Virus record (IMG/VR): IMGVR_UViG_3300010883_000489
Coordinates: 1-23,594 of that record
DNA: 23,594 bases
Strand: one strand, 5' to 3'
Source of the DNA: a virus
Below the pieces are notes generated by a model. The model had not been told where the DNA came from. It was given only the letters and a program-made list of their open reading frames with translations, and searched no databases. The position numbers and the translations under genes were made by a program. This document shows, one piece after another, positions 2,588-3,888 of the stretch. Each line of letters begins with the position of its first letter. Within the stretch, counting starts at the first letter, position 1.

Positions 2588-2614
2588 AAAATAATTAATA
2601 TAGAGAATATAAAC

Positions 2615-2977
2615 ATGTCACAATCACAAATCGTAGAAATCTTTGGTAAATTTGCTGTTGAATTAGAAGACGGCCCTAAATTGTTTGATACACATGCAGA
2701 AGCATTAACTGCCGAAACTGAACACTTGAAAGGTGCTGAGTTCCGTGAAGAAGCTGATGGCTTCAATGCGTTTGCTGGTAACGAAGGCAAGAACGCTAAA
2801 GGTAAGTCTAACGTAATCGTTGGTTACTTGAACTGGGTAGCCGCTGGTAAGCCAGAAGCTCCAGTGAAAGAAGAAGTCGAAGTAGCAGAAGAAGCTGCTG
2901 CTGACGAAGTTGCTGTGTCTGTAGATGCTGTTGATGCTGTTGATGCCGATGGCACAATTGCAAACGTAGACTTCTAA
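2615..2977 (+). CDS. Acidic small phage protein (120 aa), unknown function
   Basis: The ATG lies 27 bases after a strong leader hairpin. The product starts MSQSQIVEIFGKFAVELEDG. Residues 1-80 look like a small folded domain (FxxHAEAL..ETEH, GYLNWVAAGKP). The last ~40 residues are an acidic, low-complexity tail of E, D, A and V with the repeat DAVDAVDADG, encoded by a 9-bp tandem repeat around 2926-2949. The gene is flanked by a structured leader and a perfect-palindrome terminator, so it is probably an independent, well-expressed unit. An acidic tail could serve protein interaction or DNA mimicry as in T7 Ocr, but no homology is seen. Confidence 0.85.
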   Translation: MSQSQIVEIFGKFAVELEDGPKLFDTHAEALTAETEHLKGAEFREEADGFNAFAGNEGKNAKGKSNVIVGYLNWVAAGKPEAPVKEEVEVAEEAAADEVAVSVDAVDAVDADGTIANVDF

Positions 2978-2998
2978 GACTAAATTGCTGCCGTTTAG

Positions 2999-3026
2999 AA
3001 GCCCTAGTTAATTAACTAGGGCTTTT
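2999..3026 (+). terminator. Perfect-palindrome intrinsic terminator
   Basis: A 26-nt perfect palindrome centred on TTAATTAA, with arms AAGCCCTAG and CTAGGGCTT (2999-3024), is followed by TTTT. It lies 21 bases after the stop of the acidic protein. Because it is symmetric it could act on both strands. The AAGCCCTA arm is reused in the terminator after the SSB gene. Confidence 0.88.
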
Positions 3027-3130
3027 GAGTTTATCTAAGTGGTTATGTCCTACTCAATGCTGTGTAGGTTTGTACTAACTGATTAGTACAAGCTCGATAG
3101 AGCAAAACTCGTGACCACTTAAATAAGCTT
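3027..3130 (+). ncRNA. Compact four-way-junction small RNA candidate
   Basis: A long outer helix joins 3027-3043 to 3114-3130. It includes TAAGTGGT/ACCACTTA and TTAT/ATAA with a single C/A mismatch, 16 paired positions in all with three wobbles. It encloses three hairpins in order: CCTAC/GTAGG (3049-3053/3064-3068, 10-nt loop), TTGTACTAA-CTGA-TTAGTACAA (3070-3091, 9 bp perfect) and GCTC-GATA-GAGC (3092-3103). The element fits exactly between one terminator and a second one starting at 3136. No ORF is present. Expression and function are unknown. Confidence 0.6.
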
Positions 3131-3135
3131 AACTT

Positions 3136-3176
3136 AGCTCTTGCCTGAACAGGTGAGGGCTTTTCTATTTTTTTTT
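3136..3176 (+). terminator. Strong intrinsic terminator with long T-run
   Basis: AGCTCTTGCCTG (3136-3147) pairs with CAGGTGAGGGCT (3150-3161) including several G/T pairs, so the central pairs open to make a usable loop. It is followed by TTTTCTA and nine T's to 3176. It comes directly after the four-way-junction RNA and before the lysis genes. Confidence 0.85.
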
Positions 3177-3198
3177 GTAACCAACTAGGATAAATACT

Positions 3199-3453
3199 AT
3201 GAGTAAGAAAAAAACTAGGCACCTATTAGCTGCCTGTAACCGAGATACTGATGTATTTAACACTATTGTGTTTAATACACAAACACAAAAGTATAGCTGG
3301 GGCGGTAAAACAGCTACGTGTGTTGAAGCCTTAAGTAATGAACCATCAGATTACACTTACAATGGGACACCAATAGCTGTTGGGTCAACGAGGAAGTACC
3401 TACTAGGTTGGCTTAAAGGCGATGAACGATTTACTAAAATAGTAATGGGGTAA
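3199..3453 (+). CDS. Hypothetical protein (84 aa)
   Basis: The ATG at 3199 is preceded by AGGATAAATACT, a good SD and spacer. The product starts MSKKKTRHLLAACNRDTDVF, is soluble and slightly basic, and has a central SWGGKTATCVEAL segment. No domain is recognised. It is the first gene after a strong terminator and is followed 3 bases after its stop by the holin-like gene, so it probably belongs to the lysis cluster. Confidence 0.75.
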   Translation: MSKKKTRHLLAACNRDTDVFNTIVFNTQTQKYSWGGKTATCVEALSNEPSDYTYNGTPIAVGSTRKYLLGWLKGDERFTKIVMG

Positions 3454-3456
3454 TAT

Positions 3457-3888
3457 ATGAACCCAGTAATATCGTTCATAGGTGGGCTAATCAAACCTGT
3501 GTCAGATCACTTTTCAGAAAAATCTAAAATAAAATCAGCTATAGGTAAGCGCAAAGATGAGTTAACTAAACTCAACCTAAAGGCTAAAATAAAACTAATA
3601 CAGAAGTCAGGAGATGCTAGTTTATCTATTGACCAAGCTAACGGGAGTGACCCAATACCATGGGCAAACGATGCAACATTAATATTATTCTTACTACCAT
3701 TTGTTTTATCTTTCTATCCTCCTGCTTTACCTCACATAGTAGCGGGGTTCCAAGCACTGGATGGCATGCCCCAATGGTACAAGTACAGTCTGGGGATGAT
3801 GCTGATATCAGTGTGGGGATACAGAAACCTAGTATCACCAATAATTCAGTCAATAGCAAAAGCTTACCTAAGCCGAACAAAACTTTAA
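3457..3888 (+). CDS. Holin-like membrane protein (143 aa)
   Basis: Residues 1-65 are charged and probably cytoplasmic (EKSKIKSAIGKRKDELTKL, then a QKSGDASLSIDQANGSDPIPW linker). Two hydrophobic segments follow at about 73-94 (ATLILFLLPFVLSFYPPALP) and 107-125 (WYKYSLGMMLISVWGYRNL). This architecture, a charged coiled N-terminus then a D..PW entry to membrane helices, resembles phage 3TM/GTA-type holins, which form membrane lesions that release endolysin. Position directly before the lysozyme supports this. The ORF start follows the previous stop by 3 bases. A second hydrophobic frame lies inside this gene (3660 onward). Confidence 0.65.
   Translation: MNPVISFIGGLIKPVSDHFSEKSKIKSAIGKRKDELTKLNLKAKIKLIQKSGDASLSIDQANGSDPIPWANDATLILFLLPFVLSFYPPALPHIVAGFQALDGMPQWYKYSLGMMLISVWGYRNLVSPIIQSIAKAYLSRTKL

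Follow-up and report, generated by a model that had tools for sequence, protein, structure and literature searches.

What does a phage encode in the noncoding stretch in front of its lysis genes? Such stretches are usually left blank in annotation, and the question is raised by a segment at 3027-3176 of a 23,594-base viral fragment from IMG/VR (the window), which a first-pass annotation had singled out as a folded small RNA with its own terminator. The segment follows a gene for a phrog_4429-like protein and is followed by a small gene, a gene for a phrog_2524 protein and a gene for an endolysin-like protein. It thus adjoins the lysis genes on their 5' side, between genes all read in one direction; the phrog_2524 protein is probably holin-like, judging from its place and its hydrophobic segments. 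The window terminase shares 45 to 47% identity with its counterparts in Vibrio phage VPs20, Aeromonas phage pAh6-C, and similar phages of 52 to 56 kb, and VPs20 and other records matching the phrog_13087-like protein are filed under Chaseviridae. On the strength of this identity and this filing, the window was read as a fragment of a probable marine relative of this lytic phage family. The features of the locus are listed in Table 1.

Table 1. Features of the locus around the folded element (window coordinates)
Feature	Position	Strand	Evidence
Upstream gene for a phrog_4429-like protein of 120 aa whose acidic C-terminal tail ends in Phe	2615..2977	+	PHROGs E 1.3e-6; family alignment
Hairpin 1, 11 bp, terminator-like, weak U tract (UUUUGAG)	2999..3024	+	Fold; recurs in relatives
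Closing helix, 5' strand (20-22 bp; C-A mismatch 3035/3122)	3025..3047	+	Fold, inverted-repeat scans
Inner hairpin 1, 7 bp, interrupted	3049..3068	+	MFE and centroid structure
Inner hairpin 2, 9 perfect bp, CUGA loop	3070..3091	+	MFE and centroid structure
Inner hairpin 3, 4 bp, GAUA loop	3092..3103	+	MFE and centroid structure
Closing helix, 3' strand	3110..3132	+	Fold, inverted-repeat scans
Intrinsic terminator 2, 11-bp stem 3136-3161, long U tract to 3176	3136..3176	+	Terminator scan
Downstream small gene, 84 aa; L033 has a similar gene, by eye	3199..3453	+	ORF list

In the MFE fold of 3027-3176, the + strand formed a four-way junction at 3027-3130, with three hairpins inside a closing helix. 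The fold had an MFE of -57.9 kcal/mol (z -7.55), and none of 200 dinucleotide shuffles was as stable; for 3027-3130 alone the values were -42.4 kcal/mol and z -7.4, and a closing helix of equal length was reached in 0 of 500 shuffles. Among 940 overlapping 110-nt segments scanned across the whole stretch, the best z belonged to the one at 3026. The closing helix consists of 8 bp (3027-3034/3123-3130), a C3035-A3122 mismatch, and 12 bp (3036-3047/3110-3121), and its 20 bp become 22 bp when U3025-U3026/A3131-A3132 are added. The four-way junction described in the first-pass annotation is therefore real by these fold statistics, and the three hairpins it named, one of them with 9 perfect base pairs, are all seen in the fold; of the 16-bp closing helix with one mismatch, the mismatch stood and the length was revised upwards. 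The segment had also been called free of ORFs, which holds at a threshold of at least 60 aa, with a 13-codon ATG frame beginning at 3045. Taken together, the original observation on this segment was confirmed and is stronger than first described.

Helix length was assessed by an ungapped, strand-symmetric inverted-repeat scan with a loop of 20 to 260 and at most one mismatch. It replaced a permissive helix count allowing bulges, which was dropped because it proved unspecific, with many helices of 17-22 'bp' elsewhere. By the ungapped scan, the whole window contained a single inverted repeat of at least 18 bp, and this was the 22-bp closing helix; in 60 window shuffles, repeats of at least 20 bp occurred at a mean of 0.1 and repeats of 22 bp did not occur.

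The two flanks of the element differ in strength. The terminator that had been placed upstream of it, ending at 3026, did not hold up: the hairpin found there has a poor U tract and was not called by the terminator scan. The terminator reported to start at 3136 was recovered by the scan as a strong one, beginning five nucleotides past the end of the element. A promoter check between 2980 and 3030 had been proposed; no sigma-70-like promoter was found on the + strand between 1800 and 3562, no promoter of the GJ1 type was found in the window, and the 21 nt between the stop of the phrog_4429-like gene and hairpin 1 leave little room for one. Chaseviridae encode their own RNA polymerase, with promoters that are unidentified according to the ICTV profile (PMC12842549). 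In GJ1, two 'putative phage promoters' are annotated (L073:1172-1191 and 1504-1523; AAGAATTAGTTGGAAGAGGA and AAACATTAGTTGGATGTGGA), one of which sits just upstream of the phrog_4429 gene despite the 'not identified' of that profile (PMC12842549). Because 2999-3024 is a poor terminator, it is just as conceivable that the RNA forms the 3' portion of the phrog_4429 gene transcript. The idea of a discrete small RNA, as first put forward, is partly supported: the selected structure and its own strong terminator are borne out, whereas a promoter of its own found no support and the first terminator is poor.

The 3' flank of the phrog_4429-like gene was classed at 14 marine loci, the window included. 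These relatives were gathered through terminase neighbors, record searches, and alignments of phrog_4429-like and phrog_13087-like proteins, a search with the phrog_4429 protein of the window alone having returned no homologs. At 9 of the 14 loci (the window, L022, L023, L024, L025, L030, L032, L033, and L041), a terminator-like hairpin preceded an RNA with a closing helix of about 22-29 bp, and at six of these nine a second terminator hairpin came after it. The other five (L027, L031, L040, L048, and L049) were without the element, which marks it as dispensable; L047, with a weaker, separate helix only, and L054, which is distant and resembles cultured phages, were counted in neither group. 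At all six loci put through the ungapped scan, no inverted repeat in the noncoding stretch covered was longer than the closing helix. What is kept among the relatives is only this long helix and its position, whereas the four-way junction, the sequence, and the inner size vary. Interiors ranged from 23 nt in L025, essentially one hairpin, to more than 200 nt in L023 and L030, and the interiors and front hairpins of the window were unrelated to those of L032 and L033, although the neighboring proteins are 56-60% identical. A place and a clamp retained while the sequence turns over point to a real, undescribed phage RNA. In L032 and L033, the two nearest relatives of the window, further helix-closed stretches of 20-23 bp were observed upstream of the phrog_4429 gene (L032:3415-3540, L032:3722-3793, and L033:4555-4681).

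The least probable explanation, scarcely credible on these data, is that two neighboring terminators happen to enclose a fortuitous inverted repeat. The region is indeed noncoding and A+T rich, and terminators are common, yet a 22-bp helix was never reached in the window shuffles, and chance is already contradicted by the return of this architecture, in the same position, at nine marine loci and in cultured Chaseviridae.

Whether the helix is maintained as RNA or as DNA was judged from its base pairs. Summed over the nine closing helices, G-U pairs made up 28 of 221 pairs on the + strand versus 2 of 177 on the - strand, a count somewhat biased towards the + strand by the picking of helix arms from + strand folds. 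The + strand fold was also the more stable one at every locus with the element (9/9 marine and 4/4 cultured). Between L028 (= L023) and L030, the 25-bp closing helix contained two double compensations and no broken pair, and 11 pairs were double-compensated overall, counts that rest on two sequences. The interiors of homologous pairs (L028/L030 and modules B and D, described below) were likewise structured and compensated. The G-U excess on the + strand and the compensatory changes in homologous pairs together indicate that selection acts at the RNA level on such helices, specifically on the + strand. A cruciform or inverted repeat serving replication, recombination, or packaging is accordingly a highly improbable reading: a long inverted repeat in a noncoding stretch and an endonuclease VII-like protein encoded by the phage would suit it, whereas the G-U pairs, the better folding of the + strand at all loci with the element, and the transcription terminators flanking it speak for RNA. 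Since blastn detected no phage homolog of the window element and its 9-bp hairpin had no exact match in IMG/VR, the covariation is that of the elements of its relatives; the conservation of pairing called for at the outset was therefore seen as compensatory changes in L028/L030 and in the modules rather than on the window sequence itself.

Comparable units were found in cultured Chaseviridae. In members such as Faunus, Y2, GJ1, flopper, MLP1, and PM1, up to about 1.2 kb of noncoding sequence lies downstream of the phrog_4429 homolog; it opens with a terminator-like hairpin and continues with one or two helix-closed modules on the + strand. Module A was present in flopper, MLP1, TH33, and Mangalitsa, module B in GJ1, 4HA13, and, as the second module, flopper, module D in Y2, Farigoule, SSEM1, Aioli, and Fifi451, and module E as the second module in Y2 and Farigoule, so that modules are swapped between genera. 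Part of module A lies downstream of a core RNA in Faunus and 4HA13. Module D contained four double-compensated pairs. The interior of module B recurs in FelixO1-like phages, and comparison of Chaseviridae with FelixO1 revealed six compensated pairs in this module, its closing helix having four double compensations, one broken pair, and one gapped pair. As judged from module compensation, distribution, and the recurrence of interiors elsewhere, the helix-closed units in this position are genuine RNA structures and undergo exchange. One typical Chaseviridae region was seen in a record labeled 'Staphylococcus phage Pel53' with the host Staphylococcus hyicus (L067, PP952070); this host label may be wrong, because Chaseviridae are described from Gammaproteobacteria (PMC12842549).

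The class was delimited by a position directly downstream of a phrog_4429-family gene and by a terminator-like hairpin immediately followed by a closing helix of 10-12 to about 20 bp or more. The window element has the phrog_4429-like neighbor, and its hairpin is followed by the 22-bp closing helix; the cultured locus resembles it in the left gene, the terminator-like hairpin, and the helix-closed RNA on the + strand. Compared by blastn with 50,697 phage records, 2600-3460 showed no similarity to the cultured modules; we infer from shared place and architecture that the element belongs to the same system. The loci also differ in that the cultured ones often consist of one or two modules and then a conserved core RNA of about 175 nt, which the window and its marine relatives are without. 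Fold statistics, conserved architecture, compensation, and G-U bias together support an RNA structure that is real, under selection, and equipped with a strong terminator.

The core RNA (Faunus L058:8300-8469 and aligned copies) matched 226 phage records, among them Chaseviridae, Schitoviridae, 46-kb siphophages, FelixO1-like and Klebsiella phages, and the lambdoid phage HK633, and its 3' part matched 136 of 5,426 E. coli genomes. Its hairpins covary, and a pseudoknot is likely (TCGA/TCGA against CCAA/TTGG). No Rfam family matched it at the six Chaseviridae loci put to this search, and as covariance model R1 it gave no credible match in the window, itself a fragment, or in the marine relatives. 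In HK633 (L078:1130-2109), it lies in a noncoding stretch of about 950 nt running from the annotated late promoter pR' to the holin gene, again just before lysis genes. In FelixO1 (L079:1190-1432), module B and the core RNA stand side by side in the tRNA region, with a core match of 90.6 bits.

Searches for a known family agreed with the initial remark that the element resembles none. Among the covariance models of Rfam 15, GOLLD and ROOL included, only a tRNA was found in the window at the gathering threshold and nothing overlapped 3027-3176 at E values up to 5; ARAGORN and Rfam located tRNA-Met at 2379-2453 as the only tRNA or tmRNA, leaving the element unmatched. Blastn of 2600-3460 against the 50,697 phage records returned no match to any part of the locus, and the exact sequence of the 9-bp hairpin was absent from IMG/VR. 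Two candidates were rejected: the interior motif of L023 and L030, AATCGTCCCTGTGCGGG, used as a probe, gave two new matches without neighboring genes that were judged to be chance, and an integron attC site was dismissed by eye for the wrong orientation of its boxes. No account of helix-closed RNAs in Chaseviridae was found in the open literature searched, which is weak evidence, as the search was largely confined to freely available papers.

Other parts of the window were recorded alongside. The phrog_4429-like protein had no Pfam or PDB match, and its structure model was of low confidence (pTM 0.40) with no meaningful fold match; most of its relatives share the acidic tail ending in Phe, as in single-stranded DNA binding proteins. 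Upstream of its gene, 1.7 kb without long ORFs (914-2614) contain the tRNA-Met, two copies of a 26-nt repeat similar to a tRNA D arm (1994 and 2091), and pieces like T arms near 2067 and 2270, which may be either degenerate tRNAs or a larger RNA. The same noncoding stretch contains a strong stem with interrupted pairing at 960-1043 (GCTCTACCT...AGGTAGAGC), whose z ranks among the better ones and improves further on the - strand. At the contig start, a tandem 105-nt repeat, 92% identical, occupies 11-220 within the ORF at 41-586.

RNase III sites of the T7 type are long stems between genes that span some two helical turns in the transcribed strand. The window element shares with them a stem of at least 20 bp on the transcribed strand between genes; they are simple irregular hairpins, whereas the window stem encloses an interior of several hairpins and is followed by a strong terminator. 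GOLLD and ROOL are phage-linked and occur near tRNAs. With OLE, these large ornate RNAs (PMC12286853) are structured and noncoding like the window element, but they are much larger. A title cited in PMC12197685 points to DicF RNA as a precedent for a route through RNase III and termination, and DicF and similar phage-derived small RNAs, made by termination and by RNase III or RNase E, resemble the window element in being structured RNAs with their own terminator in a phage operon; the likeness covers the structure and the proposed processing route. The anti-sRNAs AgvB and AsxR of E. coli O157 prophages, phage small RNAs acting on host regulation (PMC4104026), are a possible model for action in trans; they differ in being Hfq-bound sponges. 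The element is of a known kind, a structured noncoding RNA of a phage, and no Rfam family fits this one.

The most likely identity of the element is a terminated phage RNA, possibly trimmed by RNase III, for which a function can be proposed. A transcript from the phrog_4429 gene would read through the weak hairpin at 2999-3024 and end at 3136-3176. The clamp of 20-22 bp, two turns of A-form duplex, would protect the ends of the RNA, and host RNase III could cut it, a step already suggested for other phage RNAs, to free a compact RNA of about 105-150 nt from the mRNA. In the infected cell, and ahead of the switch to the lysis genes, the freed RNA would then act in trans, for instance by binding a host RNA or protein or by serving as a decoy for one. 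This whole course, a clamped + strand structure made in the phrog_4429 transcript, trimmed, and acting in trans, is given an even chance; its weakest step is the action in trans.

The main rival holds that only the stem matters, in cis. As a T7-type RNase III site or a 3'-end block, it would part the phrog_4429 mRNA from the holin/endolysin mRNA and shield mRNA ends, with the interior as mere filler and no RNA acting in trans. This account is a serious possibility, if one held with less confidence, and it draws on the retention of only a 22-29-bp helix and its place around interiors that range so widely in length, on the position between co-directional genes just before the lysis genes, and on the absence of the second terminator in some relatives. 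Filler would hardly be structured and compensated, as the interiors of L028/L030 and of modules B and D are, nor would it recur in other phages, as some interiors do. The variability of the interior thus favors the stem acting in cis, and compensated, recurring interiors in relatives favor an RNA acting in trans; fast turnover of the interior would be in keeping with a region that follows a host target.

The observations tentatively suggest that the element belongs to an undescribed modular RNA system of lytic phages, in which self-contained, clamped units come and go at a noncoding locus near the lysis genes, are exchanged, and receive new closing stems, many enteric phages adding the pseudoknotted core RNA, and which would provide exchangeable tools against host functions or defenses. 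Since GJ1, MLP1, and flopper (on E. coli) carry comparable units, their expression, processing, and function are open to immediate testing. Units acting in trans would offer a new source of phage RNA tools; units acting in cis would form a clear class of processing stems in a family whose RNA polymerase promoters are unidentified (PMC12842549).
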